Source: a virus
IMG/VR virus record: IMGVR_UViG_3300025853_010492
Location: 1 to 63,899 of that record
DNA: 63,899 nt
Reading direction: 5' to 3' (one strand)
Shown here: in pieces, positions 22,452 to 55,563 of the stretch
Layout of the letters: each line of letters opens with the position of its first letter
How positions within the stretch are numbered: position 1 is the stretch's first letter
Notes under the pieces: model-generated
The model's input: only the letters and a program-made list of their open reading frames with translations
What the model was told of the DNA's origin: nothing
Databases searched by the model: none
Position numbers and translations under genes: made by a program

Positions 22452-22454
22452 AAT

Positions 22455-23060: not shown

Positions 23061-23067
23061 TTAACAA

Positions 23068-23685
23068 TTACTCCTGTTTTACGTAAAATGCATCACCCCA
23101 ACCATGATCTTCCCACCAATCAGTTTCAATTCTCTCAAAAGAAAACTTAGATAAAAAATCATCAATATCTTCTATATATGCATTGTTCTCATAGATCTCA
23201 TCACTATTAACTTCACAATAAATGTAATCAATATATTGAAGGGTATTCTCTGCCCCCTTCAATACTTCAAGTTCATATCCCTGAACATCAATATTTAACA
23301 TATTATATTCTGTGAGATTGTAATCATCCAATCTATTAACTTCTACCTTTTCTGTTTTATCAAAAGTAACGTCTGGATATAATTGTAAATGTTTTTTTGG
23401 TTTTAATATAGAACTACTCTCACATTGATTACTACTTAAATACATATCAACAATTTTATTTGTACTTCCCAATGCGACTTGATGCCCTGTTATATTTGCA
23501 TTGTAGTTAGAAGCGTGAGACGCAACCTTATAAAAATTATCTAGAACTGGTTCAAATAGAACAATATTCTTGATTCCATTGTTAATATAAACTGGTATCT
23601 CTTCACCATGATGAGCACCTACGTGAATAACTCCTGTGATTTCCATTTTATAACTATTAAAAATTGTATTAAAATCTATTAACAT
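23068..23685 (-). CDS. FkbM-family methyltransferase, 205 aa
   Basis: Starts at ATG 23685 rather than the upstream TTG. GVIHVGAHHGEEIPVY is the SAM loop, NIVLFEPV motif II, and MLNIDVQGYELEVLKGAE is the exact FkbM signature (D-V-Q-G-x-E). It probably O-methylates a sugar. It shares family but little identity with the 21762-22451 protein, so the two likely have different targets. Confidence 0.9.
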   Translation of the reverse strand: MLIDFNTIFNSYKMEITGVIHVGAHHGEEIPVYINNGIKNIVLFEPVLDNFYKVASHASNYNANITGHQVALGSTNKIVDMYLSSNQCESSSILKPKKHLQLYPDVTFDKTEKVEVNRLDDYNLTEYNMLNIDVQGYELEVLKGAENTLQYIDYIYCEVNSDEIYENNAYIEDIDDFLSKFSFERIETDWWEDHGWGDAFYVKQE

Positions 23686-23687
23686 TA

Positions 23688-24425: not shown

Positions 24426-24430
24426 ATTAT

Positions 24431-25551: not shown

Positions 25552-26178
25552 TTAGGTTTTCATGATGTATGCTAGTGCATAATAAGGAGGTCTATTCTCA
25601 TGAGCATTGCCACTACCAGCATTTCCAACACTAACAGACACTGGATGACTATGAGAACCTGCAGAATTAACTGATACACTTACTGGATGAGTATGAGCAC
25701 CTGCAGGTGAAGTAGTTCTAGCTTGAGTGCCTTGGTTAACTGCATTACCAGCACCATCTTTTGGAGCATTTTGTGAGGCAGTTCCTGTGTATGCGTGAGA
25801 GTGAGTACCTGCAGGTCCTGTAGACCCACTTGCTGGGTGAGAGTGAGATCCAGCAGATCCACTAGAACCAGATCCTGGATGATTATGTACAGGTAGTTGT
25901 GCTGTTGTTAGTGTTACAGTATCAGAACCACCAGTAGCAGCTACAGCATATCCATTACCTGCACCAACAACAAACCTGTCCCTAAGATCTGGTGTACTAT
26001 TAAGACCATCACATAAAACCCATCCAGTAGGTATCGATGCTGTTGAACCAGACCATAAAATAATACCTCCACTAGGAACTGATCCTCCTGGTCCTGCACC
26101 AGTATCCATGCTGGTGCATGTCATTACTCCTGTTAGATTTAAATTTTCACCTGTTATGTCCGCCGCTAAAATAGGCAT
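25552..26178 (-). CDS. Tail collar-domain protein with five HxH motifs (short-tail-fibre-like), 208 aa
   Basis: Residues about 38-90 form a Phage Tail Collar domain: GGIILWSGSTASIPTGWVLC, then DLRDRFVVGAG. The C-terminal region repeats His-x-His motifs: HNH, HSH, HSH, HTH and HSH. In T4 gp12 and similar fibres such motifs bind a metal ion along the trimer axis and make a needle-like tip. It ends ENRPPYYALAYIMKT, the common end of this family. Its start overlaps the stop of the giant fibre (ATGA), so the two are probably made together and this could be the tip or an independent short fibre. Confidence 0.9.
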   Translation of the reverse strand: MPILAADITGENLNLTGVMTCTSMDTGAGPGGSVPSGGIILWSGSTASIPTGWVLCDGLNSTPDLRDRFVVGAGNGYAVAATGGSDTVTLTTAQLPVHNHPGSGSSGSAGSHSHPASGSTGPAGTHSHAYTGTASQNAPKDGAGNAVNQGTQARTTSPAGAHTHPVSVSVNSAGSHSHPVSVSVGNAGSGNAHENRPPYYALAYIMKT

Positions 26179-29100
26179 CAGTCTACCTCCGATAACATGA
26201 ACTTAAACTTTTTACCATTTCTTCTATTAATTAGGAACAAATCATTCTCTCCTTCTTGAATTGTATATTCACCCCATGTTCCATCAACATCATTTGTAGA
26301 ACCCTCATTACTAAGATTAATATCATTTGTATAAATGTTTGCCCAGCGAAGAGTGGTTGAACCAAGATCTCTTGTATTATTTGTATTTGGAACAATATTT
26401 CCAGCAATTGTTAGAACACTTCCAGTAAAGGTAAGATTTGCTTCTGCATTAACTGTTCCAGCAGAACCAGTAGCAGTTATGACTCTATTGTCTACATTAT
26501 TTGAAATTGTTGTTGTATTTGCAGAACCCTGAGTGCCTTGAGTTGCTTGGGTTCCTTGATTACCTTGGAGTCCTTGTGTACCTTGGCGTCCTTGAAGACC
26601 TTGAGTTCCCTGGCGTCCTTGGCGTCCTTGGTTTCCTTGGAGACCTTGAGTACCTTGGGTTGCCTGTGTACCTTGATTACCTTGTGTACCTTGGTTACTT
26701 AAACCTTGCGTACCTTGGCGTCCTTGTGTACCTTGGCGTCCCTGAAGACCTTGAGTTCCCTGGCGTCCTTGGCGTCCTTGGTTTCCTTGGAGACCCTGGT
26801 TACCTTGGCGTCCTTGGTTACCTTGGCGTCCTTGGTTACCTTGTGTACCTTGGTTACTTAAACCTTGCGTACCTTGGCGTCCTTGGTTACCCTGGTTACC
26901 TTGGCGTCCTTGGTTACCTTGTGTACCTTGGTTACTTAAACCTTGCGTACCTTGGCGTCCTTGGTTTCCTTGGAGACCCTGGTTACCTTGGCGTCCTTGG
27001 CGACCTTGATTACCCTGAAGACCTTGGTTACCTTGGCGTCCTTGGTTACCTTGATTACCTTGGTTACCTTGACGACCCTGACGACCTTGGTTTCCTTGGA
27101 GACCCTGATTACCTTGACGACCTTGATTACCTTGTGTACCTTGTCTTCCTTGTACACCCTGAACACCAGATCTTGTAAATGCTAGCGTTACTTCTTCACT
27201 TACTGATGGTGAAGTACCTGCAAGATAATTGACTGGGATGGTATAATAAGTACCATTATCAGTTATATTTCCATCAACTTCAAAAATAACAACAGTATTA
27301 TCTGAAGATAGAGCTGAGATTATGTAAATATAACCTCTATTCAATCCTCCAGTTAGTGTTGTATCATCCCAACTTGCGATCCATCCCGATTGATTATTGC
27401 TTAAAGCATCAATATCATTAACTGTAATAGAAGTTACAGAAGATGCTGTTGCATTATTGAATCTAATTTGACCAGAAGATGGTGCTCCAGTTCCTCCATA
27501 TGCATAAGGAACTCCACCACGGTTACCAATGTTGCCCTGGTTACCTTGGTTACCCTGATTACCCTGATTACCTTGGTTACCTTGGCGTCCTTGGTTACCC
27601 TGAAGACCCTGGTTTCCTTGGCGTCCTTGATTACCTTGATTACCTTGGTTACCCTGATTACCTTGATTACCTTGGTTACCTTGGCGTCCTTGGTTACCTT
27701 GGAGTCCCTGATTACCTTGATTACCTTGGTTACCCTGATTACCCTGGTTACCTTGATTACCTTGGTTACCTTGATTACCTTGGTTACCTTGGAGACCCTG
27801 AACACCAGATCTTGTGAATGCTAAAGTAATTTCTTGGTTTACGGAAGGATTTGTCCCACTGAGCGGATTAACTGGAATGGTATAATAAGAACCATTATTT
27901 GAAATATTTCCATCAACTTCAAAAATGTTTACTGTGGTTTGTGAAGATAGGGCTGAGATTATGTAAATATAACCTCTGTTCAATCCTCCAGTTAATGTTG
28001 TATCATCCCAACTTGCAATCCAGTTTGATTGATCATTACTTAATTGATCAATATCATGAACTTGAATTGCAGTGATGCTAGCAAAGGTTCCGTTGTTATA
28101 TCTTACTTGTCCAGATGAAGGAACTCCTGTTCCTCCCCAACGATAAGGAACTCCACCACGGTTACCGATATTACCTTGGTTACCCTGATTACCCTGGTTA
28201 CCTTGATTACCTTGATTACCCTGGTTGCCCTGAAGTCCCTGATTACCTTGATTGCCTTGGTTACCCTGGTTACCCTGGAGACCTTGGTTTCCTTGGTTGC
28301 CTTGGTTACCCTGGTTGCCTTGGTTACCCTGGTTGCCTTGGTTACCTTGGAGTCCCTGATTACCTTGATTACCCTGATTACCTTGGTTACCCTGATTACC
28401 TTGGTTGCCTTGGTTACCTTGGAGTCCCTGAGTACCTGCTCTATTGAAGTTAAATACTAACTTCTCAGTATTTGCAGGTCTAGATCCAGACACATATGAT
28501 ACTGGGATTCTATAGAAACCAGAAGCAACTTGAACTGCACCCGTGACATTGAATACATTTACATTATTATCTGCACTATCCGCAGATGTTATTACAAGAT
28601 TACCTCTAGTAAGACCAGTGTTTAATGTAGTATCATCCCAAGTGTTGTACCACCCAGTTTGATTGTTGCCAAGAACATCTAAGTTATCAATATAAATGAA
28701 GCTCACTGAGCTCATTGTTGCATTGTTATATCTTACATTTCCATTTCCAGGATCTGCGTTAGTAGTGGTTGTAGAGAAGTTATAAGGAACTCCACCACGG
28801 TTACCGTAGTTACCTTGGTTACCCTGCAATCCTTGATTACCTTGGTTACCCTGATTACCCTGGTTACCCTGGTTACCTTGGTTACCCTGCAATCCTTGAT
28901 TACCTTGGTTACCCTGATTACCCTGGTTACCCTGGTTACCTTGGTTACCCTGCAATCCTTGATTACCTTGGTTACCCTGATTACCCTGGTTACCCTGGTT
29001 ACCCTGGTTTCCTTGGTTGCCCTGGTTACCTTGCAGTCCTTGGTTACCTTGGTTGCCTTGATTACCTTGAACACCCTGGACACCAGATCTTGTAAATGCT

Positions 29101-32100
29101 ATGGTAAGTTCTGTTCCGTTTGAGGGAACAGAACCACTAATAGGATTGACTGGAATAGTGTAATATGATCCATTATTTGTTGCACTACCATCAACTTCAA
29201 AAATATTGACAGTATTTTGTGCGGAGTTTGCAGAGATAAGGTAGATATAACCTCTGTTCAATCCACCAGTTAATGCTGTATCATCCCAACTTGCAATCCA
29301 GTTTGACTGGTCATTACTTAAAGCATCAATATCATTGATTCTAAGTTCAGTAATACTGGAGAATGTTCCACTATTATATGTAACTGTACCTGATCCAGGA
29401 GCTCCTCCACCAGATCCTTGGAAGTCATAAGGAACTCCACCACGGTTACCAATGTTACCCTGGAGACCTTGAACACCCTGGTTACCAACTGGTTGGATAA
29501 CAGCAAAGACCTTATCACCATCAGAGAATGTTCCAGTCTGTGCAATCTTTGTACATGAATAACTTCTCCATCCACCATTATCTGTTCTAGCACTTTCAAT
29601 GGAGAAGATAACATAATCTAAGTTATTAACTTCTCTTTGAACAGTAACAATAGATCTAGGAATGTTATCAGAATAATCTAGAGAAGCAAGAATACCTTCA
29701 ACATCACTCAAGTTAATATCAGTTTCACTAATTCTGAATGTTGTGAAGTTTGCAGTTACAGCGGCATTAAATCCAAGATGTCCTGTTCCTGGATCAGAGT
29801 TTGCAGTAGAAGTAGTGTATTCAAATGTAGATCCGAGAGATCTTGCAGCAGCGATACCCTGTAAACCTTGTAGACCTTGATTACCTTGGTTACCCTGATT
29901 ACCTTGATTACCTTGGTTGCCCTGATTACCTTGGTTACCTTGATTACCTTGGAGTCCTTGATTACCTTGGTTGCCTTGATTACCCTGATTACCCTGATTA
30001 CCTTGGTTGCCTTGGTTACCCTGCAATCCTTGGTTACCCTGGTTACCCTGGTTACCCTGATTACCTTGATTACCTTGGTTGCCCTGATTACCTTGGTTAC
30101 CTTGATTACCTTGGAGTCCTTGATTACCTTGGTTGCCTTGATTACCCTGGTTACCTTGAAGTCCCTGTACGCCAGTTTTTGTAAAGAAGACTGTTACTTC
30201 TTGACCATTTGATGGTAAATTACCACTCAAGTATGTGACTGGTACTCTATAATATGAAGTATTGTTCTCAACAGTATTGTTTACATAGAATACTGCGGTA
30301 ACATTTGTTGAACTGTCTGCCGATGTAATATAGATATAACCACGATTTAAACCAGCATTAACTACTGTATCATCCCAAGTATTGTACCAACCAGTTTGAT
30401 TTACTCCAAACTCATCAGTGTCATCAAAATACATGTTTGTGACACTACCAATAGTACCAGAGTTGAATCTAAGTCTTCCTTGACCACCAGATCCAGCAGC
30501 AGTGTTAGTATCGAATAGGTAAGGGATGCCACCACGGTCTCCAAGCATACCTTGGTTACCCTGATTACCTTGATTTCCTTGGTTACCTTGGTTACCTTGC
30601 AATCCCTGGTTACCCTGGTTGCCTTGATTACCCTGATTACCTTGGTTGCCTTGGTTGCCTTGGAGTCCTTGATTTCCTTGGTTACCTTGATTACCTTGGT
30701 TACCTTGATTACCTTGGTTGCCCTGGTTGCCTTGGCGTCCTTGGTTACCTTGTAGACCCTGGTTACCCTGATTACCCTGGTTACCCTGGTTACCTTGAGT
30801 ACCTTGAGGTCCAGCAACAGAAATACTTACAATTAGTTCAGTATTATTACTGATAGTTGTGGTTGTTGATATAACATTAGTAATTGAAATAGTGTGCCAT
30901 CCACCAGCACCAGAAGCATTTTGAGTAACTCCTGTAATTTCATATACATTGTATGCTGTTAAATCATTAGCAAGACCAATTCTGATGAATCCTCTCTTGT
31001 TTACCGATCCATATTCAGTAATTGTTTGTAGGAATGTGTCAAGATTTACATTATCACTGTTTGTATTATCAATATAAACTGCTGTTGCACTAGCAATATT
31101 TGCATTATTAAATCTTAAATTACCACTTCCAGGATCACTTGCAGTGGTTGAATTATTATAGAAATAATTGTAACTATTTTCAGAATCTCTACCTTTAATA
31201 CCCTGGTTTCCTTGAAGACCTTGATTACCTTGGAGACCTTGAGCACCTGCAGGAGTAAAGTTAATTGATAACTGTTCATTATTTCCTGGTAAAGTACCAG
31301 AAATGTAGGTAACAGGTATTCTATAATATCCAGTTTGAGCAATAACATCTCCACTAACTGCAAAAGCATTTACTGTAGTTTGGTTGGAGTCAGAAGAAGT
31401 TATATACAAATAACCTCTAACCAATCCAGTATTTGTTACAGTATCATCCCATGTGTTATACCATGCCGTCTGATTGTTACCTAGATCATCTAAGTTATCA
31501 ATATAAAATTCAGTAACAGATGCAATATTGCTATTGTTATATCTTACGACACCATTTCCAGGATCTGCATTAGTAGTGGTTGTAGAGAAGATATATGGAT
31601 TTCCTCCACGACTACCAGTATTACCCTGAAGACCCTGATTACCTTGATTGCCCTGGTTACCCTGGTTACCTTGACGACCTTGATTGCCTTGGAGTCCTTG
31701 ATTGCCTTGAACACCTTGCTGTCCACTCTTAGTAAAGACAACACTCAAATCTTGCCCATTTGATGGTAAAGAACCAGTAAGGTTATTTACAGGTACGCTG
31801 TAGTATGTTCCATTATTAACTACTGGACCATCAACAAAGAATACTGCTGTTACATTTGATGTACTATCAGCACTACTAATATAAATGTAACCTCTATTAA
31901 GTCCATTATTTACTATTGTATCATCAAAAGTATCGTACCAACCAGTTTGATCAACACCAAATGAATCTGTATCATCAAAATAAAGAGTGCTTACGTTTGC
32001 AATATTGGAATCATTGAATCTAATAACACCTTGTCCACCTGTTCCTGCAGTTGTAGTAGTATCAAAGGAATACCTAACACCACCACGGTCTCCAAGCATA

Positions 32101-35100
32101 CCCTGGTTACCCTGGTTACCCTGATTACCTTGGTTACCCTGATTACCTTGGTTGCCTTGATTACCCTGGTTGCCTTGATTACCTTGAAGACCTTGATTAC
32201 CTTGGTTACCTTGATTTCCTTGGTTACCTTGATTGCCTTGAAGTCCTTGATTGCCTTGAAGTCCCTGATTACCTTGATTACCCTGGTTACCTTGGTTGCC
32301 TTGGTTGCCCTGGTTACCTTGATTGCCTTGGAGACCTTGGTTACCTTGATTACCTTGATTACCTTGGTTGCCTTGCAATCCTTGTAATCCTTGCAATCCT
32401 TGTAGACCTTGATTACCCTGATTACCCTGGTTGCCCTGATTACCCTGGTTGCCCTGGTTACCTTGATTACCTTGATTACCCTGGTTGCCTTGAAGTCCCT
32501 GATTACCTTGGTTACCCTGATTACCCTGGTTGCCCTGGTTACCTTGATTACCTTGATTACCCTGGTTACCTTGAACACCCTGAACACCTGTCTTTGTAAA
32601 GAATACCGTTACTGCTTGACCATTTGTGGGGAGATTACCACTTAGATAAGTAACTGGTACTCTATAATATGAAGTATTGTTCTCAACAGTATTGTTTACA
32701 TAGAATACCGCAGTAACATTAGTTGCAGAGTCTGCGGAAGTAATGTAAATATATCCTCTATTGAGTCCCGCATTAACTACCGTATCGTCCCAAGTGTCAT
32801 ACCAACCAGTCTGATCAACACCGAATTCATCAGTGTCATCAAAATACATGTTTGTAACATTGGCAATTGTTCCATTATTAAATCTAAGTCTTCCTTGACC
32901 ACCAGATCCCGCTGTAATAGTTGTGTCAAATAAGTAAGGAACACCACCACGGTCTCCAAGCATACCCTGATTACCCTGGTTGCCCTGGTTACCTTGATTA
33001 CCTTGGTTTCCTTGATTGCCTTGGAGACCTTGATTTCCTTGGTTACCCTGGTTACCCTGGTTACCTTGATTACCTTGGTTTCCTTGATTGCCTTGGAGAC
33101 CTTGATTTCCTTGGTTACCCTGGTTACCTTGGTTACCTTGATTGCCTTGGAGACCTTGGTTACCCTGATTACCTTGGTTACCTTGTAGACCTTGGAGACC
33201 TTGTAGACCTTGGAGACCTTGCAATCCTTGATTACCTTGGTTGCCTTGGTTACCCTGATTACCTTGGTTGCCTTGGTTACCCTGATTACCTTGGAGTCCC
33301 TGGTTACCCTGATTACCCTGATTACCTTGGAGTCCCTGGTTACCCTGATTACCCTGGTTGCCCTGGTTACCTTGATTACCTTGGAGTCCTTGATTACCTT
33401 GGTTACCTTGATTACCTTGATTGCCTTGGTTACCCTGATTACCTTGGAGACCCTGAATACCTGTCTTTGTAAAGAAGACTGTAAGTTCTTGATTGTTTGT
33501 AGGTAGATTTCCACTTACAAAAGTAACAGGGATGGTATAATAAGTACCATTATCAGTAACAACATCATCTACATAGAAGATTGCTGTAGTATTACTGGAA
33601 CTATCTGCAGACGTAATATATACATATCCGCGATTTGAACCAGAATTGACTTGAGTATCATCCCAAGTATCATACCAACCAGTTTGATCAACAGCAAATG
33701 AATCTGTATCATCAAAATAAAGTTCAGTTACACTACCAATTGTTCCACTATTGAATCTAATTCTTCCTTGACCACCAGATCCTGCGGTAGTAGTTGTGTC
33801 AAATAAGTAAGGAATGCCACCACGGTCTCCAAGCATACCTTGGTTACCCTGATTACCCTGGTTACCTTGATTACCTTGGTTACCTTGATTGCCTTGGAGA
33901 CCTTGGTTACCCTGGTTACCTTGATTACCTTGGTTACCCTGGTTACCTTGATTGCCTTGGAGACCTTGGTTACCCTGGTTACCTTGATTACCTTGGTTAC
34001 CCTGGTTACCTTGATTGCCCTGAAGTCCCTGGTTGCCTTGATTGCCCTGGTTACCTTGATTACCCTGATTACCTTGATTACCCTGGTTACCTTGGTTACC
34101 TTGATTACCTTGGAGTCCCTGATTACCTTGGTTACCTTGAGTACCTTGAATACCAGCAAGACCAAAACTTAAGAATATTGCTTCATTATTAGAGAATCCA
34201 GTACCAGCACTAACATTTGAAGTTAAATCTAATGTACTCCATCCATTAGCACCAGCAGACTCTAAAATAACTCCACCAAGTCTAAAAATATAGAAGTTAT
34301 TTGCATTTGTTTGAGACTGAATCTTAACAAATCCCTTATTTCCAGGAGATCCATATTGATCAACGAATGAATAGAAGTCACTTAAATCTGATCCATTTTC
34401 ATCTCTATGATCAAGGTATATTTCTGTACTATTCTCAATTGTACTATTATCAAATCTTATAAATCCTTGTCCAGGATCTGCGGCTGTAGTGCTTGTTGAA
34501 TAGAAGTATTCAAAAGTATCTCCAGAACTTACACCATCTGGACCTTGAAGACCTTGTAAACCTTGAACACCTTGGACACCAGATCTTGTAAAGTTAAATA
34601 CTAACTTTTCAGAGTTGGTTGGTAAAGATCCAGATACATATGCAACAGGAACTCTGTAATAACCAGTCTCTGCTGTAACTGCTCCTACAACATTAAAGAT
34701 ATTTACATTAGTATCTGCACTATCTGCAGATGTTATTACAAGATTACCACGACTTAAACCTGCATTTAGTTGAGTATCATCCCAAACATCATACCAAGCG
34801 GTCTGATCATTACCTAGGTCATCTAAGTTATCAATATAAATTTCGGTTACAGAACCAATGGTTGCATTATTATATCTAAAATTACCATTACCAGGATCTC
34901 CATTCTGTGTAGTTGTAGAGAAGATATAAGGAACCCCACCACGGTTGCCGTAGTTACCCTGTAGACCTTGATTGCCTTGATTACCCTGGTTACCTTGATT
35001 ACCTTGGTTGCCCTGGTTACCTTGGTTACCCTGCAATCCTTGATTACCTTGGTTACCCTGGTTACCTTGATTACCTTGGTTGCCCTGGTTACCTTGGTTA

Positions 35101-38100
35101 CCCTGCAATCCTTGATTACCTTGGTTACCCTGGTTACCTTGGTTACCCTGGAGACCTTGCAGACCTTGGAGACCTTGGAGACCTTGGTTGCCCTGGTTTC
35201 CTTGATTACCTTGATTACCCTGGTTACCTTGATTACCCTGGTTACCTTGGAGACCTTGGTTGCCCTGGTTACCTTGATTACCTTGGTTACCTTGGAGTCC
35301 TTGGAGACCTTGGTTACCTTGAACACCTTGAGGTCCTATAAACGAGAAGCTAATGAATACTGTATCGTTATTAGAGAAGTTTCCAGAAGATGCATAGAAT
35401 TGGGTAATGTCAAATGAGAACCATCCAGTAGCACCACCAGTTTGTAATTGAGTATTACCAACAACAAACAAATGATATTGGGATGCATCAACAGGATCTA
35501 CAATCTTAACAAGAGCTTGTCTCTCTAGAATTCCATAGTTCTCAATATCTGCAAGGAAGTCTGACAGATCAGTTCCACCACTATCAGTGTTGGCAATGTA
35601 CAACTCAGTTGCACTAGACTGAGTTGAGAAATTATCAAATCTTAATCTTCCAGATCCAGGATTTGCTGCACCTGTTGAAGAACTGAATGTATAAACATAA
35701 GTAGTTTCAGCATTTCTACCACTAAGACCTTGGTTACCTTGTAAACCTTGTGTACCTGTTTTAGTGAAGAATACTGTTAATTCTTGTCCATTAGAAGGAA
35801 GAGATCCAGTTAAATAGTTTACTGGAATACTATAATAAGAACCATTATCAGATACAGAACCATCTACTTCAAAGATAATACTTGTGTTTGTAGAAGAATC
35901 TGAGGTAGTAATATAAATGTATCCACGATTCTCTCCAACATTAACTTGAGTATCGTCCCAAGTATCATACCAAGCGGTTTGATCTATTCCAAATAGATCT
36001 GTATCATCAAAATAAAGTGTAGTTGCGTTTGCAATAGCTGGACTATCAAATCTTAATACCCCTTGACCACCAGAACCTGCTGCGGTAGTAGTATCAAACT
36101 CATAAGGAATACCACCACGGTCTCCAAGCATACCCTGCAGACCTTGGTTTCCTTGAAGTCCCTGATTACCTTGATTACCCTGGTTACCTTGATTACCTTG
36201 GTTGCCCTGGTTACCTTGGTTACCCTGCAATCCTTGATTACCTTGGTTACCCTGGTTGCCTTGGTTACCTTGAAGACCTTGGAGACCTTGGAGACCCTGT
36301 AATCCTTGGTTGCCCTGGTTACCCTGGTTACCCTGGTTTCCTTGGTTGCCTTGATTACCCTGGTTACCCTGGTTACCTTGTAGACCTTGAATACCTGTCT
36401 TTGTAAAGAAGATGGTTATATCTTGTGCATTAGAAGGAATATTACCACTCAAATAAGTAACAGGTATTTCCTGATAATCAGTTTGGTCTGTTATTGCCCC
36501 AGTTACTTCAAATATTGCACTAACATTAGTTGCAGAATCTGCTGAGGTAATATAAATGTATCCCCTACCTTCTCCAGCAATAACTTGAGTATCATCCCAA
36601 TTTGCAACCCAAGCAGAGTGATCTACTCCAAAGATATCATTATCATCAACATATATTTGAGTTACACTACCAATGGTACTATTATTAAATCTAAAATCTC
36701 CATCACCTGAAGATCCAGATCCAGTAGCAGTATTAAATCTATAAGGAATACCACCACGGTCTCCAAGCATACCCTGGTTACCTTGTAAACCTTGATTACC
36801 CTGGTTTCCTTGGTTGCCTTGATTACCCTGGTTGCCCTGGTTACCTTGGTTGCCTTGATTACCCTGTAGACCTTGGAGACCTTGGAGACCTTGTAAACCT
36901 TGATTACCCTGGTTGCCCTGATTACCTTGGTTACCTTGATTACCTTGGTTACCCTGATTACCTTGGTTGCCTTGAAGTCCCTGGTTACCTTGGTTACCTT
37001 GGTTACCCTGATTACCTTGGTTGCCTTGGTTGCCCTGGTTACCTTGGACACCCTGAGTTCCACTCTTAGTGAATAGTACCGTTACTTCTTGACCATTTGA
37101 AGGAATATCACCACTTACATAAGTTACAGGAACAGTCCAATAAGTAGTGTTATCTATTACAGCATCATCAACATAGAATATAGAAGTTACATTACCACCA
37201 GAATCTGCCGAGGTTACATAGAGGTATCCACGATTTAGTCCAGCATTTAACTGAGTATCGTCAAATGTATCGTACCAACCAGTTTGATCAGATCCAAAAG
37301 AATCTGTATCATCAAAATATAATTCTGTAATATTTGCTGCGGTAGCATTGTTATACCTTAATGATCCTTGTCCACCCGTACCTGCTGTGGTAGTAGAATC
37401 AAAGTCATAACGAATACCACCACGGTCTCCAAGCATACCCTGGTTACCTTGGTTACCCTGATTACCTTGATTGCCCTGGTTACCCTGGTTACCCTGATTA
37501 CCTTGGTTGCCTTGGTTACCTTGAAGACCTTGGAGACCTTGGAGACCCTGGTTGCCTTGATTACCTTGGTTGCCTTGATTACCTTGATTACCTTGGTTGC
37601 CCTGGTTTCCTTGTAAACCTTGAATACCAGTTCTACTATGGAACAGTGTTAAAATGTCACCATTAGAAGGTAATGTACCAGTTACATACTCTACTGAAAT
37701 TTTATAGTATCCAGATGCAACTTGATTAACACCATTAATTCTAAAAATGTTTACTGTAGTTCCAGATAAAATATCCGCAGAGATAAAGTATAAGTATCCT
37801 CTATCTGGATTCTCAGTATCATCCCAAACATCATACCAAGCAGTCTGATTATTACCAAGATCATCTAAGTTATCAATATAAATTTGAGTAACTGAGTTTA
37901 TTGCCGAGTTGTTATATGCAACATTACCATTTCCAGGATCTTGATCTGTTGTACTCTGAACCCATTCATAACGAATACCTCCTCTATCACCAATACCACC
38001 CTGAAGACCTTGAAGTCCTTGGTTACCTTGGTTACCTTGGAGACCCTGGTTACCTTGGTTGCCTTGACGACCTTGGTTACCCTGGAGACCTTGAGCACCT

Positions 38101-40415
38101 ACACCCTGTAATCCCTGGTTACCTTGTAGACCCTGTAAACCTTGTAGACCCTGTACACCTTGAGAACCTACACCTTGAAGTCCCTGGTTACCTTGATTGC
38201 CCTGATTGCCCTGATTACCTTGGTTGCCCTGGTTACCCTGATTACCTTGTAGACCTTGTAAACCTTGGTTGCCCTGATTTCCTTGGTTACCTTGGTTACC
38301 TTGGTTACCCTGGTTGCCCTGGTTACCTTGATTGCCCTGATTACCTTGACGACCTTGTGTTCCTTGGACACCTTGAATAGATACGTCAGTAATCGTTGCT
38401 TTCTTTAAGCTAGAATCACTAATATCATATAAAAGAAGTAGATCTGACTGTTGAATATCTCCAGTTAATTGTGGTTTTTGGAATATAAGATTTGGAGATA
38501 CATTAGTAAGATAAGAATTTGTAACTCCTGTACCAAGAGTTGTTTCTTCTAATACAGTATTTCCATTAATTTTATAAACTTTTCCACTTGGAACGTTTAC
38601 ATTTTCTGTAATGTAAATAGATGCTGTTCCAGATTGCCAAACAATATCTTTTCTAATTGATGTTGAACCGATACCAATACCAGCACCATCTAGGAGAGCA
38701 TTATCTCCTACCGATTTTGCAATTCCAATCTTGAAGTCTGGAATATCCAGAGTACCAGTACTAATTGTGATTGTTTCACCATCAACAACTAGGTTGCCTT
38801 TAATTCTAACAATACCTGTGTTATCACCAACACCTGCTGGGTCAAGGGTAATTGTTGATGGACCAGTGATAGAATCACTATTTACAATAATTGCTTGTCC
38901 AAGTGCTCCAGTCTTAAATGATGTACCAGTAACAATACCAGCAACATAAAGATTACTGTTGGCATCAAATCTTAGATCATCAGAACCTTGTGGGAGATTA
39001 GATGCATTTTTGAAGATTACCTGATATGGATCACCTTCTACTGGACCAGCAACACCCTGAAGACCTTGGTTGCCCTGAAGACCTTGCAGACCTTGATTGC
39101 CTTGAAGACCCTGAAGACCTTGTAAACCCTGTAAACCTTGTAGACCTTGGTTGCCTTGAAGACCTTGATTACCCTGATTACCTTGGTTGCCCTGGTTACC
39201 TTGAAGACCCTGAAGACCTTGCAGACCTTGAGCACCTTGTAAAGCAGCACTCAAAATTGTATCTTTCTTTAATAAACCATCAGTCTGATCATAGAAGAGA
39301 ATAAAATCCTCTGGTTGTGCCTGAGTTTGTACCCTATCATTAATAAATCCAGGATTTGCAGATCTAAGATTTGAATTTGTAATTCCTAATCCAAGCGTAG
39401 TTGCATTTAATACTTCATTTTCAGCAACATAGTATGCTCCATCTGGTTCATGAACACCAAAGTTCACACTAGATTGCCAAGCATCAATACTGAATTTGTA
39501 TTTTATTGATTTTCTTACTGATGTAGAACCAATACCAATAACAGATCCGTCAAGATTAGATTCTAATGTCTCATTAGCATTAAAGATAATAGAATCTGTT
39601 CCAAGAACAACATCATTATCGAAGAATGTAATTTGACTACTACTAAATCCAATCGGAGTTCCTTTGATTTGAAGGTCACCCTCAATGAATACAACACCAT
39701 CTTGGAATGGTACAATACTAATTGATGCTGGACCTAAAATTTTATCACCAGTAAGTGCTAATGAACTATTTGTATCAAATCCAGTATAGAATGCATCTGC
39801 AGTTAGAATACCAGAAATAATATTATCAAAAGATGGAGATGATCCTTGGGTAACAACACCCTTTGGTCCCTTGTACCTATAAGCAACAAGGTAAACATTT
39901 CCAGAGTTTACTCCAGAAGGGACTACAGTTCCATTGAAGTTAAGTACACCTGCAGCATAATCAAAGAACCAAGTATCATTTGATCCAGCACCAGCTGCAG
40001 ATAGCTGCACACCACCAGAAGCAGGATCACCTCTATAAACTTTAACAATGTAATCTGGACCAAAGCTAGGATCAATCCAATCACCCAGAAGTGTTGAACT
40101 GTTATTATTATACGTTGCTCTACATAAAAATGCTCTATTACCACTAACAGTGGGGTCTGCCGTTAATCTTAAAGCACTTGCTGTTCCATATACCTGTACA
40201 ATAGAACTAGTTGCTGAAGGTGGAGTTCCTGGAATATCTCCACTCTCTGACCAAATAAGATCAGAACGAATTACCAGTGGCGAAGGAATAGCTTCCGCAA
40301 ATGGTGCTTTTTTGGTGCCTGATAAAGTAGAGTCCTCAGCTATACCAGTTTTGGATGCGGTATAACCTATCTTCTTTAATAGAAAATCTAGCTTTTGTTC
40401 TTGAGATGCTGCCAC
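26178..40415 (-). CDS. Giant collagen-like tail fibre, 4745 aa
   Basis: Starts at GTG 40415 behind AGGGGA. Residues 1 to about 390 are a fibre base whose first 45 residues are closely similar to the 54934-55563 protein. Then collagen-like Gly-x-Gln tracts (x = Asn, Leu, Arg, Thr or Val; third position always Gln) alternate with 18 globular modules of about 100 residues. Fourteen modules begin G[DNS]RGG and contain a WDDT-like core; four have a different start (NPGSGRLRF-type) and a YG centre. The last 75 residues end NRRNGKKFKFMLSEVD, typical of cyanophage fibre ends. Mass is about half a megadalton per chain, presumably trimeric. It is coupled to the collar-domain protein. Confidence 0.93.
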   Translation of the reverse strand: MAASQEQKLDFLLKKIGYTASKTGIAEDSTLSGTKKAPFAEAIPSPLVIRSDLIWSESGDIPGTPPSATSSIVQVYGTASALRLTADPTVSGNRAFLCRATYNNNSSTLLGDWIDPSFGPDYIVKVYRGDPASGGVQLSAAGAGSNDTWFFDYAAGVLNFNGTVVPSGVNSGNVYLVAYRYKGPKGVVTQGSSPSFDNIISGILTADAFYTGFDTNSSLALTGDKILGPASISIVPFQDGVVFIEGDLQIKGTPIGFSSSQITFFDNDVVLGTDSIIFNANETLESNLDGSVIGIGSTSVRKSIKYKFSIDAWQSSVNFGVHEPDGAYYVAENEVLNATTLGLGITNSNLRSANPGFINDRVQTQAQPEDFILFYDQTDGLLKKDTILSAALQGAQGLQGLQGLQGNQGNQGNQGNQGLQGNQGLQGLQGLQGLQGLQGNQGLQGLQGNQGLQGVAGPVEGDPYQVIFKNASNLPQGSDDLRFDANSNLYVAGIVTGTSFKTGALGQAIIVNSDSITGPSTITLDPAGVGDNTGIVRIKGNLVVDGETITISTGTLDIPDFKIGIAKSVGDNALLDGAGIGIGSTSIRKDIVWQSGTASIYITENVNVPSGKVYKINGNTVLEETTLGTGVTNSYLTNVSPNLIFQKPQLTGDIQQSDLLLLYDISDSSLKKATITDVSIQGVQGTQGRQGNQGNQGNQGNQGNQGNQGNQGNQGNQGLQGLQGNQGNQGNQGNQGNQGNQGNQGLQGVGSQGVQGLQGLQGLQGNQGLQGVGAQGLQGNQGRQGNQGNQGLQGNQGNQGLQGLQGGIGDRGGIRYEWVQSTTDQDPGNGNVAYNNSAINSVTQIYIDNLDDLGNNQTAWYDVWDDTENPDRGYLYFISADILSGTTVNIFRINGVNQVASGYYKISVEYVTGTLPSNGDILTLFHSRTGIQGLQGNQGNQGNQGNQGNQGNQGNQGLQGLQGLQGNQGNQGNQGNQGNQGNQGNQGNQGNQGMLGDRGGIRYDFDSTTTAGTGGQGSLRYNNATAANITELYFDDTDSFGSDQTGWYDTFDDTQLNAGLNRGYLYVTSADSGGNVTSIFYVDDAVIDNTTYWTVPVTYVSGDIPSNGQEVTVLFTKSGTQGVQGNQGNQGNQGNQGNQGNQGNQGLQGNQGNQGNQGNQGNQGNQGNQGNQGLQGLQGLQGLQGNQGNQGNQGNQGNQGNQGNQGNQGLQGNQGMLGDRGGIPYRFNTATGSGSSGDGDFRFNNSTIGSVTQIYVDDNDIFGVDHSAWVANWDDTQVIAGEGRGYIYITSADSATNVSAIFEVTGAITDQTDYQEIPVTYLSGNIPSNAQDITIFFTKTGIQGLQGNQGNQGNQGNQGNQGNQGNQGNQGLQGLQGLQGLQGNQGNQGNQGNQGLQGNQGNQGNQGNQGNQGNQGNQGLQGNQGLQGMLGDRGGIPYEFDTTTAAGSGGQGVLRFDSPAIANATTLYFDDTDLFGIDQTAWYDTWDDTQVNVGENRGYIYITTSDSSTNTSIIFEVDGSVSDNGSYYSIPVNYLTGSLPSNGQELTVFFTKTGTQGLQGNQGLSGRNAETTYVYTFSSSTGAANPGSGRLRFDNFSTQSSATELYIANTDSGGTDLSDFLADIENYGILERQALVKIVDPVDASQYHLFVVGNTQLQTGGATGWFSFDITQFYASSGNFSNNDTVFISFSFIGPQGVQGNQGLQGLQGNQGNQGNQGNQGLQGNQGNQGNQGNQGNQGNQGNQGLQGLQGLQGLQGNQGNQGNQGNQGLQGNQGNQGNQGNQGNQGNQGNQGLQGNQGNQGNQGNQGNQGNQGNQGLQGNYGNRGGVPYIFSTTTQNGDPGNGNFRYNNATIGSVTEIYIDNLDDLGNDQTAWYDVWDDTQLNAGLSRGNLVITSADSADTNVNIFNVVGAVTAETGYYRVPVAYVSGSLPTNSEKLVFNFTRSGVQGVQGLQGLQGPDGVSSGDTFEYFYSTSTTAADPGQGFIRFDNSTIENSTEIYLDHRDENGSDLSDFYSFVDQYGSPGNKGFVKIQSQTNANNFYIFRLGGVILESAGANGWSTLDLTSNVSAGTGFSNNEAIFLSFGLAGIQGTQGNQGNQGLQGNQGNQGNQGNQGNQGNQGNQGNQGNQGLQGNQGNQGNQGNQGNQGNQGLQGNQGNQGNQGNQGNQGNQGLQGNQGNQGNQGNQGNQGNQGMLGDRGGIPYLFDTTTTAGSGGQGRIRFNSGTIGSVTELYFDDTDSFAVDQTGWYDTWDDTQVNSGSNRGYVYITSADSSSNTTAIFYVDDVVTDNGTYYTIPVTFVSGNLPTNNQELTVFFTKTGIQGLQGNQGNQGNQGNQGNQGNQGLQGNQGNQGNQGNQGNQGLQGNQGNQGNQGLQGNQGNQGNQGNQGNQGNQGNQGLQGLQGLQGLQGLQGNQGNQGNQGLQGNQGNQGNQGNQGNQGLQGNQGNQGNQGNQGNQGNQGNQGLQGNQGNQGNQGNQGNQGNQGMLGDRGGVPYLFDTTITAGSGGQGRLRFNNGTIANVTNMYFDDTDEFGVDQTGWYDTWDDTVVNAGLNRGYIYITSADSATNVTAVFYVNNTVENNTSYYRVPVTYLSGNLPTNGQAVTVFFTKTGVQGVQGNQGNQGNQGNQGNQGNQGNQGNQGLQGNQGNQGNQGNQGNQGNQGNQGNQGNQGLQGLQGLQGLQGNQGNQGNQGNQGLQGNQGNQGNQGNQGNQGNQGNQGLQGNQGLQGNQGNQGNQGNQGNQGLQGNQGNQGNQGNQGNQGNQGNQGNQGNQGMLGDRGGVRYSFDTTTTAGTGGQGVIRFNDSNIANVSTLYFDDTDSFGVDQTGWYDTFDDTIVNNGLNRGYIYISSADSTSNVTAVFFVDGPVVNNGTYYSVPVNNLTGSLPSNGQDLSVVFTKSGQQGVQGNQGLQGNQGRQGNQGNQGNQGNQGLQGNTGSRGGNPYIFSTTTTNADPGNGVVRYNNSNIASVTEFYIDNLDDLGNNQTAWYNTWDDTVTNTGLVRGYLYITSSDSNQTTVNAFAVSGDVIAQTGYYRIPVTYISGTLPGNNEQLSINFTPAGAQGLQGNQGLQGNQGIKGRDSENSYNYFYNNSTTASDPGSGNLRFNNANIASATAVYIDNTNSDNVNLDTFLQTITEYGSVNKRGFIRIGLANDLTAYNVYEITGVTQNASGAGGWHTISITNVISTTTTISNNTELIVSISVAGPQGTQGNQGNQGNQGNQGLQGNQGRQGNQGNQGNQGNQGNQGNQGNQGLQGNQGNQGNQGNQGNQGNQGLQGNQGNQGNQGNQGNQGMLGDRGGIPYLFDTNTAAGSGGQGRLRFNSGTIGSVTNMYFDDTDEFGVNQTGWYNTWDDTVVNAGLNRGYIYITSADSSTNVTAVFYVNNTVENNTSYYRVPVTYLSGNLPSNGQEVTVFFTKTGVQGLQGNQGNQGNQGNQGLQGNQGNQGNQGNQGNQGNQGNQGNQGNQGLQGNQGNQGNQGNQGNQGNQGNQGLQGNQGNQGNQGNQGNQGNQGNQGNQGLQGLQGIAAARSLGSTFEYTTSTANSDPGTGHLGFNAAVTANFTTFRISETDINLSDVEGILASLDYSDNIPRSIVTVQREVNNLDYVIFSIESARTDNGGWRSYSCTKIAQTGTFSDGDKVFAVIQPVGNQGVQGLQGNIGNRGGVPYDFQGSGGGAPGSGTVTYNSGTFSSITELRINDIDALSNDQSNWIASWDDTALTGGLNRGYIYLISANSAQNTVNIFEVDGSATNNGSYYTIPVNPISGSVPSNGTELTIAFTRSGVQGVQGNQGNQGNQGLQGNQGNQGNQGNQGNQGNQGNQGNQGLQGNQGNQGNQGNQGNQGNQGLQGNQGNQGNQGNQGNQGNQGLQGNQGNYGNRGGVPYNFSTTTTNADPGNGNVRYNNATMSSVSFIYIDNLDVLGNNQTGWYNTWDDTTLNTGLTRGNLVITSADSADNNVNVFNVTGAVQVASGFYRIPVSYVSGSRPANTEKLVFNFNRAGTQGLQGNQGNQGNQGNQGNQGNQGNQGLQGNQGNQGNQGNQGNQGNQGNQGLQGNQGNQGNQGNQGLQGNQGNQGNQGNQGNQGNQGNIGNRGGVPYRWGGTGVPSSGQVRYNNGTFASITAIQVHDIDQLSNDQSNWIASWDDTTLTGGLNRGYIYIISALSSQTTVNIFEVDGNISNNGSYYTIPVNPLSGTNPSVNQEITLAFTRSGVQGLQGNQGNQGNQGNQGNQGNQGNQGNQGNQGLQGNQGRQGNQGNQGNQGNQGNQGNQGRQGNQGLQGNQGRQGNQGNQGNQGNQGNQGNIGNRGGVPYAYGGTGAPSSGQIRFNNATASSVTSITVNDIDALSNNQSGWIASWDDTTLTGGLNRGYIYIISALSSDNTVVIFEVDGNITDNGTYYTIPVNYLAGTSPSVSEEVTLAFTRSGVQGVQGRQGTQGNQGRQGNQGLQGNQGRQGRQGNQGNQGNQGRQGNQGLQGNQGRQGRQGNQGLQGNQGRQGTQGLSNQGTQGNQGRQGNQGNQGRQGTQGLSNQGTQGNQGRQGNQGRQGNQGLQGNQGRQGRQGTQGLQGRQGTQGRQGTQGLSNQGTQGNQGTQATQGTQGLQGNQGRQGRQGTQGLQGRQGTQGLQGNQGTQATQGTQGSANTTTISNNVDNRVITATGSAGTVNAEANLTFTGSVLTIAGNIVPNTNNTRDLGSTTLRWANIYTNDINLSNEGSTNDVDGTWGEYTIQEGENDLFLINRRNGKKFKFMLSEVD
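26526..39244 (-). repeat. Interrupted 9-bp-periodic collagen-like repeat tracts
   Basis: About twenty tracts encoding (Gly-x-Gln)n are separated by the globular modules. Major tracts lie near 26.53-27.16, 27.53-27.80, 28.16-28.44, 28.80-29.08, 29.86-30.18, 30.54-30.81, 32.10-32.59, 32.97-33.47, 33.83-34.16, 34.94-35.33, 36.13-36.40, 36.77-37.06, 37.43-37.62, 38.00-38.37 and 39.05-39.24 kb. Codons vary (GGT/GGC/GGA, AAC/AAT, CAA/CAG), breaking up exact DNA repeats. The 3' tract uses Arg and Thr far more than the others. Confidence 0.95.
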
Positions 40416-40435: not shown

Positions 40436-42547
40436 TTATGTAGACGTGAATGACATGGCAGTAATTGACTGCCCAGAGTTCAATCTCCAACGAATCAAAA
40501 TGCGATTGTTTGAGTCATTAGATGAAGATTCTGTACCAAATACACATGTAAATGTTCCGCCAGAACCATTCATTGCACCACCCGAAGAACATCCTGGTTC
40601 TGCTGATGTTGGTACACCAGCACCTCTATATGCTTGGAACATGTCTGCCCAACCATTAGTACCAGATAAAGATGAAGTCCATGTAGAATTGTCGGGCATA
40701 CATACCCAACATCCTGCATACGATCCACTAACTGCTATTCTAAATTCAGATACCTGAGATCTTATAAATTGCAATTGGAAATATTGTGCTCCAGTTCTAC
40801 CAGAAGAATAATCTGGTCCTACTGGTAACCAAGATCCACTAGAATAATCTGTTTGATCATGCCTCAAAGCACCTCCTCTAACAATAGATTCATATGCTGC
40901 TGCAGTAGTAGAAGCACTAAATGATGTGTAAACTGGTGTGGGATTATCTGCACTAGATCCAGCGTTCACTCTAACAGCATTTCCAGAACCAGTTCCTAAA
41001 CTATTAACTGCAATGTTATCTTCATCAATAATATTAGTCCTTGCAGTTGTTCCCATCATATTGACTGCAGGAGTTATAGTTGCTCTTACTGTATCTGACC
41101 CATAAGGAGTTGTTGCAGTGTAGGTAGAGAATCTAGTAGCATCAGTATTAACTGTTTGATGAAGATCTCTAGGTGTTTGAGAAACTAAACATGTTACGCC
41201 AGTACCTACACCATAATTCTGAACTGGTGGATTAACACCTCCATCAAAATTAGTATAACTTTTACTTCCACCATTTTGAAATCCAGTAGTTTGACCACTA
41301 GATGTCAGAAAGGTATTCTGAGTGTACATATCACCCGTAGCATTCTCACAAGTTATTACATAAGTAAATGCATTGCTAGAATCTTGTGTGTAATGTGGTA
41401 CACCAGAAGAATAATTCAAAGTTGGTGAAGGTGGTGTTACTGGAGTAGTAACACTTAAAACAGGTGCAGTGACTGTACTTCCATCCTCATACCAATATGC
41501 CTGCTGGGTAGTATATGCAAACTGTTGAATGAATGCTTTATTAAATCCATCAGGACATGGAGCATTAATCAATCTGGCATCATAAACTTCATAAAATTCA
41601 GAGTTAATCCCTGGATTTCTTGATGAGAAGAATGCATCTTTATTGTTTGCAATTTGCAAGGAACCATAGATGCCATCATTAGATCCAATGGATAAATCTG
41701 TAGTACCAACTCCAACAGCATTTACAAATCCAGTAACTGTTCCAGCATCTCCTGGACCATATTCTGTAATATAATTTGAAGTAACGGTATTATCAGTATT
41801 TCTACTATATTGTGTACCTGCTGATGGCGTCAAATCACCATCAGTATTGTTAGTAGGATTAAATCCTGAACACAATCTTCCAACACCAGTCAACCCAGTC
41901 AAAGAGAATGGTTCATTTAAAATAGTTGCTGGTGGTTTTGGAACCAATTTCCCTAGAATAAAATTAATTTCATTCACAGAGTCTTTGGTATAATCTCCAG
42001 TCTCAATTCCAACTGCTCCAGGTAAGAAACCAGCAGATGGGGTTCCAATAACTTGATCACCAAAAAATTCCGATGCAGTTACAAATCCAGTAACTCTAAC
42101 ATCACCATCTACGGTTAATTTCTTATCTGCATCTGGATTGGTTAAACCAATACCAACACTCTTTGTTTGAGGAACGAATACAAAATCTTCATTAGAAGCA
42201 AATGATGTAACAACGCCTGTTGTTGCAGTTACAAATCCAATAAATTGTGGTGCAGTTCCTTGAGGATCTGATAATTTATCGGTAATTAGATTTTTTAATT
42301 TTGATCCATCACCATAATATTCGGTTGCAGTAACTACTCCAACTACTTCAAGATCATTAGATACAACAATATCTGAGGCGGTTAGGACCCCAGATATTGT
42401 CGCATCTCCTTGTACAGATAACTCCGCTGATGCATAGGTTGTGCCAATTCCGACCCGTCCAGTTACTTCAAGTACTGTTGAGTCGTCGGTATAAGAAGCT
42501 ATACCTATTCTAAGATTTTTCTTGCGTTCGCTTAAAAATTTTGACAT
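40436..42547 (-). CDS. Tail-fibre/virion protein, 703 aa, paralogue of the 672-aa protein
   Basis: The N-terminus (SKFLSERKKNLRIGIASYTD) is a fibre-base module shared with proteins at 53478-53990 and 55582-57600. A repetitive VTGRVGIGTT, SGVLTASD, YYGDGSKL shaft follows. The C-terminal 450 residues match the 55582-57600 protein closely (FILGKLVPKPPAT, CSGF, IPHYT-type, GTTARTN, GNAVRVNAGS, GTNGWADMFQAYRG). This is a duplicated fibre. The C-terminal domain is probably the host-binding or oligomerisation part. A late promoter and leader hairpin precede it. Confidence 0.85.
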   Translation of the reverse strand: MSKFLSERKKNLRIGIASYTDDSTVLEVTGRVGIGTTYASAELSVQGDATISGVLTASDIVVSNDLEVVGVVTATEYYGDGSKLKNLITDKLSDPQGTAPQFIGFVTATTGVVTSFASNEDFVFVPQTKSVGIGLTNPDADKKLTVDGDVRVTGFVTASEFFGDQVIGTPSAGFLPGAVGIETGDYTKDSVNEINFILGKLVPKPPATILNEPFSLTGLTGVGRLCSGFNPTNNTDGDLTPSAGTQYSRNTDNTVTSNYITEYGPGDAGTVTGFVNAVGVGTTDLSIGSNDGIYGSLQIANNKDAFFSSRNPGINSEFYEVYDARLINAPCPDGFNKAFIQQFAYTTQQAYWYEDGSTVTAPVLSVTTPVTPPSPTLNYSSGVPHYTQDSSNAFTYVITCENATGDMYTQNTFLTSSGQTTGFQNGGSKSYTNFDGGVNPPVQNYGVGTGVTCLVSQTPRDLHQTVNTDATRFSTYTATTPYGSDTVRATITPAVNMMGTTARTNIIDEDNIAVNSLGTGSGNAVRVNAGSSADNPTPVYTSFSASTTAAAYESIVRGGALRHDQTDYSSGSWLPVGPDYSSGRTGAQYFQLQFIRSQVSEFRIAVSGSYAGCWVCMPDNSTWTSSLSGTNGWADMFQAYRGAGVPTSAEPGCSSGGAMNGSGGTFTCVFGTESSSNDSNNRILIRWRLNSGQSITAMSFTST

Positions 42548-54933: not shown

Positions 54934-55563
54934 TCAGTAGCTTCCACCATCAAAATCTGTTAACGCTCCGATACCACCAACATATCTCCATCCTTTTATG
55001 TAAACATCAGACCCACCAGATATTAATCCAGGAACATTATCACCTGAGAAATTTAAAACACCAGAAGAATAGTCAAAGAACCATTCATCATTACTTCCAC
55101 TACCACCTGCAGAAAGTTTAATGCCCCCAGCATTTGGGTCTCCAGCATAAACCTCTACGATATAATCTGGTCCGTATTGTGTGTCTATCCAATTAATAAC
55201 ATTGATAGAACTATTATCACCATATACAGATCTTGCAATAAAACTTCTTCTACCACCAACCGTATTATCTTCTGTCATTCTAAATGCATTTGTCTGCCCA
55301 TAAACTTCTATCAATTTGTATGATGGATATCTCCAATCGTCAGGAATGATAATTAAGTCTGTTGTTGGAGGAGTAACTGGTATTAATCCAGACTCAAACC
55401 ACAATCCATTATTTGATATGATTAAAGGTGATGGAAGTGCCTCAGCAAATGGTGCCTTCTTTGTTCCTGAAATACTAGAATCTTCAGCAATTCCTGTCTT
55501 TGATGAGGAATAACCTAACTTTTTTAAAAGGTAGTCAACCTTTTGTTGGATTGAAATTGCCAT
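54934..55563 (-). CDS. Virion protein, 209 aa; short form of the giant fibre base
   Basis: The first 45 residues (QQKVDYLLKKLGYSSSKTGI, SGTKKAPFAEALPSPLI) are nearly the same as the first 45 of the 4745-aa collagen-like fibre, and the rest continues similarly (YIVEVYAGDPNAGGIKLSA, WFFDYSSGVLNFSGDNVP against WFFDYAAGVLNFNGTVVP). It therefore looks like the base domain of the giant fibre without the shaft. It could occupy the same attachment site or be the ancestor from which the giant fibre grew. Confidence 0.8.
   Translation of the reverse strand: MAISIQQKVDYLLKKLGYSSSKTGIAEDSSISGTKKAPFAEALPSPLIISNNGLWFESGLIPVTPPTTDLIIIPDDWRYPSYKLIEVYGQTNAFRMTEDNTVGGRRSFIARSVYGDNSSINVINWIDTQYGPDYIVEVYAGDPNAGGIKLSAGGSGSNDEWFFDYSSGVLNFSGDNVPGLISGGSDVYIKGWRYVGGIGALTDFDGGSY

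Follow-up and report, generated by a model that had tools for sequence, protein, structure and literature searches.

The window analysed here is a stretch of 63,899 bases, the whole of a linear IMG/VR record that is probably a genome fragment, and it carries a very large gene in which glycine-rich repeats alternate with small globular domains (beads). The locus raises the question of what such a protein is, on which part of the virus particle it would sit and whether its repeats would form collagen-type helices. A first-pass annotation, made from the letters, had read the gene as coding for a huge phage fibre of collagen-like tracts and beads. This reading is upheld by the Pfam collagen family, by a bead homologue in phage DSL-LC01, by a C-terminal tip of the gp28 type and by sister genes ending in Peptidase_S74, whereas the notions that the composition is special to this gene and that the two bead types are independent are not.

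We consider it probable that the gene product is a fibre on the virion of a T4-like marine cyanophage, most likely homotrimeric, with a docked N-terminal end, collagen-type helices, beads and a distal exchangeable tip. Within a large family of viral collagen-like fibres that has been little studied it stands at an extreme, surprising for its size, its number of beads and its near-absence of proline and charge.

Source virus and gene neighbourhood

The part of the window between approximately 1.5 and 15.5 kb gives matches to phages of Synechococcus and Prochlorococcus, psbA being among the genes matched, with 377 of 408 records at 80-90%, and the source appears to be a virus of marine cyanobacteria, a marine-type cyanophage. 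The T4-type genes gp23 and gp20 are absent within the 63.9-kb record itself and present in a linear sister record of 116,740 bp (G001), which holds the sister fibre gene L021 with an N-domain about 80-81% identical to that of the window. The baseplate family PF09215 was found in one (G010) of five records and the baseplate family PF04965 in none of the five. The interval from psbA to the fibre cluster (15096-25441, minus strand) gives PHROG matches to glycosyltransferase, methyltransferase and ferredoxin oxidoreductase.

The features of the fibre gene and of its cluster are listed in Table 1. The 208 aa gene behind the fibre gene is, by inference, a possible accessory or tip protein. The second giant gene of the cluster has its best match in phrog_4527 (short tail fiber protein) and also matches phrog_5342 (tail fiber protein), with lesser matches to the head-and-packaging families phrog_701 and phrog_18802. 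Judged by eye, its C-terminal end resembles those of some N-domain reading frames of other contigs (L098, L102).

Table 1. Features of the fibre gene and its cluster, in window positions
Feature	Position	Strand	Remarks
208 aa gene, directly downstream of fibre gene	25552..26178	-	tail-fibre/collar profiles; phrog_8469 tail fiber, E 3.2e-31
Beaded collagen-like fibre gene, whole	26178..40415	-	4745 codons, GTG start, sole stop at end
C-terminal tip (residues 4630-4745, 116 residues)	26181..26528	-	phrog_892 tail fiber, E 2.8e-20
Last Gly-x-Gln tract, more Arg and Thr at X	26529..27164	-	
Bead A14	27165..27536	-	
Bead A13	27804..28175	-	
Bead A12	28434..28814	-	
97%-alike array, 63-bp units, mainly A11-A12 tract	28799..29009	-	
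Bead A11	29082..29459	-	
Bead B4	29484..29858	-	
Bead A10	30171..30551	-	
Bead B3	30810..31202	-	
Bead A9	31245..31625	-	
Bead A8	31722..32102	-	
Bead A7	32586..32966	-	
Bead A6	33459..33839	-	
Bead B2	34152..34544	-	
Bead A5	34578..34958	-	modelled
Bead B1	35334..35729	-	
Bead A4	35754..36134	-	
Bead A3	36393..36773	-	
Bead A2	37059..37439	-	
Bead A1	37626..38000	-	
Gly-x-Gln tract ahead of bead A1 (residues 682-805)	38001..38372	-	
N-terminal repeat 2 (residues 454-681)	38373..39056	-	phrog_6002 virion structural protein, head and packaging, E 7.6e-10
First Gly-x-Gln tract (residues 394-453)	39057..39236	-	
N-terminal repeat 1 (residues 184-393)	39237..39866	-	34% identical to repeat 2
N-domain (residues 1-183); conserved, with a proposed role in virion docking	39867..40415	-	phrog_9417 (unknown function), E 2.4e-43
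703 aa partner gene, immediately upstream of fibre gene	40436..42547	-	phrog_8578, unknown function
Second giant gene, 3363 aa, same cluster	43333-53424	-	PHROG profiles
113 aa gene, same cluster	54556-54897	-	phrog_3304 'L-shaped tail fiber protein assembly', E 6.1e-16
N-domain paralogue, 209 aa, no collagen	54934..55563	-	54% identical to N-domain
Partner paralogue, 672 aa	55582..57600	-	58% identical to 703 aa partner; phrog_8578

The probable fibre gene and its protein

The protein of 4745 aa has a calculated mass of 495.0 kDa. The first-pass annotation, which had described a gene of 4745 codons at 26178-40415 for a protein of about half a megadalton, was correct in its coordinates; the gene lies on the minus strand. 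In the alignment with the paralogue at 54934-55563 the two starts coincide to the residue, GTG here and ATG there. From the N- to the C-terminus the order is N-domain, N-terminal repeat 1, tract, N-terminal repeat 2, tract, 18 beads with tracts, and tip, of which the N-domain, the two N-terminal repeats and the tip are additions to the earlier description.

The collagen family PF01391 matches the protein in 33 stretches (E 5.9e-245), a match that depends on the spacing of glycine, and no T4 fibre family is among its Pfam matches. The tail-fibre names that PHROG gives to the whole protein were not used as identity, since they are probably largely tract-driven; bead A5 alone matches no PHROG. 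The NCBIfam 'equivalogs' Lcl and SclB and the 'exception' model SclA were set aside as well, their matches appearing to follow tract composition. Automatic naming would yield collagen-like adhesin Lcl or Scl, which is an annotation trap for phage collagens. Megablast of the fibre gene against the phage collection gave no match, a result that low-complexity filtering makes uninformative for the tracts. Judged by title and the opening of the abstract, none of the open-access papers listed for collagen in phages deals with this gene or with a Gly-Asn-Gln collagen.

C-terminal tip and sister genes

The tip is homologous to the C-terminal ~98 residues of P-SCSP1u gp28 (PDB 8i4m; sequence 8i4m_e, residues 981-1078 of 1079, E 5.1e-28) and was found in 45 cyanophage records. 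It matches no Pfam family and is thus not Peptidase_S74.

Three related genes of other contigs end differently. L021 and L022 have an N-domain about 80% identical to that of the window and 4420 residues from stop to stop, and L033 has one of 68% identity and 3896 residues from stop to stop; the number of beads differs as well, from 18 in the window to 15 in L021 and L022 and 9 in L033. The last bead of L022 is 98% identical to A14, and the rest of its beads reach 45-93% against the window bead most like them. All three genes are without the window tip and have an unrelated C-terminal end instead, which in L022 and L033 is Peptidase_S74 (PF13884; E 5.8e-13 and 6.1e-16, over the cut-off), that of L022 also matching 6f45, the distal subunit of a long tail fibre (E 6.4e-5). 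As these sister genes combine the same N-domain and beads with unrelated C-terminal ends, the tip is an exchangeable cassette. In trimeric fibres S74 acts as an intramolecular chaperone, and its presence in the sister genes therefore supports a trimer for the family.

N-domain and partner gene

The N-domain and the partner gene before it occur as a pair, twice in the window (703 + 4745 aa and 672 + 209 aa). The partner gene stands directly before the N-domain, at a distance of 10-34 bp, in 38 of 40 metagenomic loci, the contig end cutting the partner position in the other two (L081, L092). These 40 loci are not independent, many being near-identical, and 39 of them yield 22 distinct N-domain sequences. 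What follows the N-domain varies: 12 of the 39 reading frames go on as Gly-x-Gln collagen and 14 as other sequence (228-2425 residues), while the remaining 13 are short, of 208-209 aa. Because it stays the same whereas all that lies distal to it differs, the N-domain is read as the virion end.

Among isolated phages the N-domain was found in 54 records and the partner in 52. The hosts of phages with the pair are Caulobacter, Brevundimonas, Agrobacterium, Sinorhizobium and Salicola, the N-domain occurring also in two partial Shewanella phage records, and the relatives of the partner belong to jumbo phages, mostly of alphaproteobacteria. No isolated cyanophage in the phage isolate collection, from which near kin of the window are possibly absent, has either of the two. 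In CcrPW two partner/N-domain pairs follow each other. CcrPW gp095 (L009, 9684-11999) and a protein of Atu_ph07 (L129, 14983-17121; gp325 by count) each join an N-domain to a partner domain in a single chain, and each is followed by another N-domain gene; two docking pairs thus share one chain there.

Searched by sequence against the PDB, the N-domain gives only weak matches to T-cell-receptor V-domains (best E 0.12). Its model has a pLDDT of 75, with residues 61-183 better, and nothing stands out when this fold is compared with the PDB (best Foldseek E 0.059, Z 5.4), the top rows being mostly phage neck, tail and fibre-root chains.

Tail or head

Attachment of the fibre to the tail or neck is the reading that we favour with some assurance. 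The same protein could be anchored on the capsid as a head filament or whisker catching hosts or surfaces, which we hold to be unlikely. The docking pair corresponds to phiCbK gp074/gp073, which lie in the head-gene module, and gp074 stands two genes before gp76 (with gp075 between), the candidate of the phiCbK authors for the ~200 nm head filament (PMC3556154). The whiskers of Atu_ph07 were described as primarily capsid-associated (PMC6102473); its two N-domain proteins, gp324 and gp325 by count between gp312 and gp327, lie inside the CDS 284-329 cluster, which is rich in virion proteins (PMC6102473). The head-and-packaging match of N-terminal repeat 2 to phrog_6002 points in the same direction.

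Several observations speak against a capsid anchor. Tail-fibre profiles (phrog_8469) match the downstream 208 aa gene, and the 3363-aa neighbour scores best against a short tail fiber family, although head-and-packaging families are listed for it too. In G001 the fibre gene lies about 75 kb away from gp23, and the window tip is a tail-fibre tip in P-SCSP1u. CcrSC gp134, the positional counterpart of phiCbK gp76, shows no similarity, and in a later paper Atu_ph07 bears its hair-like fibres on the tail sheath as well as on the head (PMC11242549).

A more elaborate proposal, of a capsid- or neck-anchored collagen whisker longer than half a micrometre that is docked by the two-gene unit common to phiCbK and Atu_ph07, with helices free of proline and charge, a polar residue (Gln, Ser or Thr) at almost all Y positions and trimerising beads that recur regularly, is doubtful to us; if true, it would constitute a second, independently tuned route to a stable collagen rod.

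Gly-x-y tracts

The tracts comprise 1818 residues in 606 triplets, i.e. 38% of the fibre protein. Position X is occupied by Asn (65.2%), Leu (19.3%), Arg (4.6%), Val (3.0%), Thr (3.0%) and Pro (0.7%), and position Y by Gln (93.6%), Arg (2.1%), Leu (1.2%) and Lys (0.2%). This composition agrees with the earlier statement that every third residue is Gly and that Y is almost always Gln, with Asn or Leu at X and essentially no Pro or Lys. Gly-x-Gln triplets in runs of at least five number 557, and none occurred in 1000 shuffles of the protein. Between beads the tracts measure 9 to 213 residues, a range that leaves out single chance triplets inside beads, and as many as 57 Gly-x-y triplets follow one another unbroken.

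The codons of the tracts are mixed. In 577 triplets Gly is encoded by GGT (411), GGA (86) and GGC (80), Gln by CAA (382) and CAG (195) and Asn by AAC (230) and AAT (155). Of 26 rows of tandem arrays, 25 are only 68-89% alike in DNA, the one that departs from this being the 97%-alike array of 63-bp units at 28799-29009. Mixed synonymous codons and arrays of this low likeness indicate that the pattern is kept as protein and does not stem from one recent DNA expansion.

Tracts were compared among 37 bead-bearing reading frames with at least 20 triplets each, which remained of 94 after removal of near-copies. The kinds of tract found in these relatives are G-N/L-Q, G-A/V-Q, G-T/S-S, G-A-T and G-P-T. 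Pro makes up less than 5% of X and Y in 28 of the 37, charged residues less than 5% in 31, and position Y is led by Gln in 18 reading frames, by Ser in 10 and by Thr in 9. Gln reaches at least 90% at Y in five, four of which have Asn or Leu at X. A tract free of proline and charge and polar at Y is, as far as these sequences indicate, a habit of the bead family of which the window gene is an extreme case, and the earlier implication that the lack of both is peculiar to this gene does not hold. As a polar Y is common to the family, networks of Gln and Asn side chains would be at most one form of the 'polar Y' pattern. X and Y positions rich in imino acids, which are usual for collagen and not strictly defining, are not found here (Pro 0.7% at X); in published viral collagens Pro takes 22% of X and Gln 13% of Y (PMC3368898, Table 4). 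A Gly-x-Gln tract lacking proline and charge may make a weak helix.

Beads

The 18 beads follow the order AAAABABAAAABABAAAA, and the earlier count of 14 modules of type A and four of type B was exact. Their size had been put at about 100 residues; measured from Gly to Gly, each has 124-132. The two types are not independent, as the A and B profiles align with a probability of 98.7 (hhalign, E 2.5e-16, 115 columns); by this profile homology they are diverged versions of a single bead domain.

A model of bead A5, built from 68 aligned beads, reached a pLDDT of 91.4 and a pTM of 0.86 and consists of beta strands and one short helix. Its fold has no confident match in the PDB (best Foldseek E 0.31, best Z 5.3), nor did the sequence of one bead find anything of note there (best E 0.35). 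Against BFVD the same fold gave 42 matches at E<=1e-3, and 25 of the 42 are named 'Collagen triple helix repeat', which marks the bead as a standing companion of viral collagen tracts. Those with this name include proteins of Klosneuvirus, Indivirus, Marseillevirus LCMAC102 and cyanophage S-CAM7. A scan for the A profile across bacterial and archaeal genomes yielded 46 pattern matches with no relative among them.

Proposed working of the fibre

In the proposed fibre, three chains would dock through their N-domains, together with the 703-residue partner, on the particle. The Gly-x-Gln tracts would zip into collagen-type triple helices that serve as spacers between the beads. The beads would be small beta domains interrupting the helices, and probably trimeric knots at which each helix begins and regains its register; since the bead has no confident PDB match, its trimeric state is a guess. 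A pure Gly-Asn-Gln helix would have no register of its own, and a trimeric bead every 9-213 residues would set the register and stop slipping; this proposal predicts that long tracts without beads misfold. The beads may also bind surface sugars, and the tip would be the distal exchangeable end, held at a distance and touching the host. With a rise of 2.9 A (0.29 nm) per residue (PMC3368898), the 1818 tract residues would give a calculated length of about 0.5 micrometre (0.53) from the tracts alone. The earlier suggestion that bead spacing sets the length and flexibility of the fibre is plausible.

Tracts that form no intermolecular triple helix, being disordered or packed in polyglycine-II-like bundles within a flexible beaded chain, are improbable in our judgement. 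Such bundles with Gly at every third residue are found in the snow flea antifreeze protein and in the S16 tail-fibre adhesin, and the richness in Asn and Gln, the 0.7% of Pro at X and the scarcity of charged pairs would suit them. The longest runs of unbroken triplets, however, lack the turns that a bundle needs, and Gly has been kept at every third residue despite the drift of synonymous codons. The bead relative set between canonical GPT collagen tracts in DSL-LC01 and the S74 chaperone of the sister genes likewise argue for the triple helix.

Integrity of the reading frame

Seven near-identical IMG/VR contigs reach across the fibre gene, and in six of them (L013-L018) the frame is intact, with more than 4700 codons. 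In a letter-by-letter comparison of L013, L014 and L016-L018 no amino-acid change was found except in one tract, where L013, L014, L017 and L018 have one 63-bp unit fewer than the window and L016. This difference is possibly a true length variation, a fast switch of fibre length, or possibly a collapse by the assembler. The seventh contig (L019) has a single-base difference, and a stop in bead A4 ends its frame. In L020, a close kin, the fibre frame is split into two frames. The broken frames of L019 and L020 could be true fibre loss or sequence error. The near-identical contigs are probably a single genotype and not independent evolutionary evidence. Eight contig-end fragments (L023-L030) carry beads 100% identical to A12-A14 and hence belong to the window's own gene type.

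That repeat expansion or misassembly produced a fused or inflated frame that is not expressed whole is very improbable: the 63-bp difference, the stop in L019 and the split in L020 would fit such an artefact, but six of the seven near-identical contigs are intact, the divergent relatives L021, L022 and L033 also hold frames of several thousand residues, and the tract DNA has diverged and is no simple array.

Comparison with known systems

The 37 bead-bearing reading frames, together with the fold predicted in giant viruses, indicate a large family of viral bead-plus-collagen fibres. Its helices would do without the residues credited with stabilising collagen, which bears on stability in the absence of proline and charge and on designed collagens. 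The N-domain and its partner are a candidate docking unit for the long filaments of both cyanophages and jumbo phages; the fibres of varied length with swapped tips form a natural series in which one can ask how reach and tip set the host contact of cyanophages.

The same pairing of partner and N-domain as in the window is present in phiCbK gp073-gp074 and in CcrPW gp094-gp096, the window N-domain being 37% identical to phiCbK gp074 and the partner 35% to gp073. Neither phiCbK gp074 nor CcrPW gp094-gp096 contains a run of six Gly-x-y triplets. For the gp75-gp76 part of the phiCbK array, the small neighbours and the 3363-aa giant of the window have no significant similarity to the counterparts tested (best E 0.024). 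The phiCbK table of virion proteins does not list gp73 and gp74 (PMC3556154), which counts against the virion-fibre reading. The calculated length of the window tracts exceeds the ~200 nm of the phiCbK head filament (PMC3556154).

P-SCSP1u gp28, which shares the tip, is a podovirus fibre of 1079 aa to which the window N-domain has no match. The N-terminal ends of gp28 are resolved in the tail dock and its distal parts are unresolved and presumed to meet the host (PMC10575957); the word 'collagen' is absent from the main text of that paper. With the S74-tipped fibres (PF13884; 6f45) the sister genes share the C-terminal end, whereas the window gene has another tip.

Relatives of the beads occur in several viral proteins. 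Phage DSL-LC01 has a bead 49.6% identical to A5 and flanked by canonical GPT collagen tracts; unlike the window protein, it has one bead and other termini. The putative tail fibre of Pelagibacter phage HTVC010P contains bead homologues (43.7%) followed by a short Gly-X-Y stretch, and differs in its size of 448 aa and in having no long tract. Collagen proteins of uncultured Caudovirales and giant viruses in BFVD, considered here as a match list, have the same bead by predicted fold.

In overall plan the protein is like EPclA and EPclB of an E. coli prophage, phage fibres with an N-domain, Gly-X-Y tracts and a C-domain (PMC3368898). EPclA is a trimeric dumbbell of ~50 nm, and in EPclB two tracts flank a repeat domain (PMC3368898). 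The Pfam fibre ends of the EPcl proteins were not found in the window protein, which is about ten times larger than EPclA (roughly 430 aa) and has 18 beads. Its tracts differ from those of the EPcl proteins in Pro at X (0.7% against 48%), in Gln at Y (94% against 14.5%) and in their near-absence of charge (PMC3368898).
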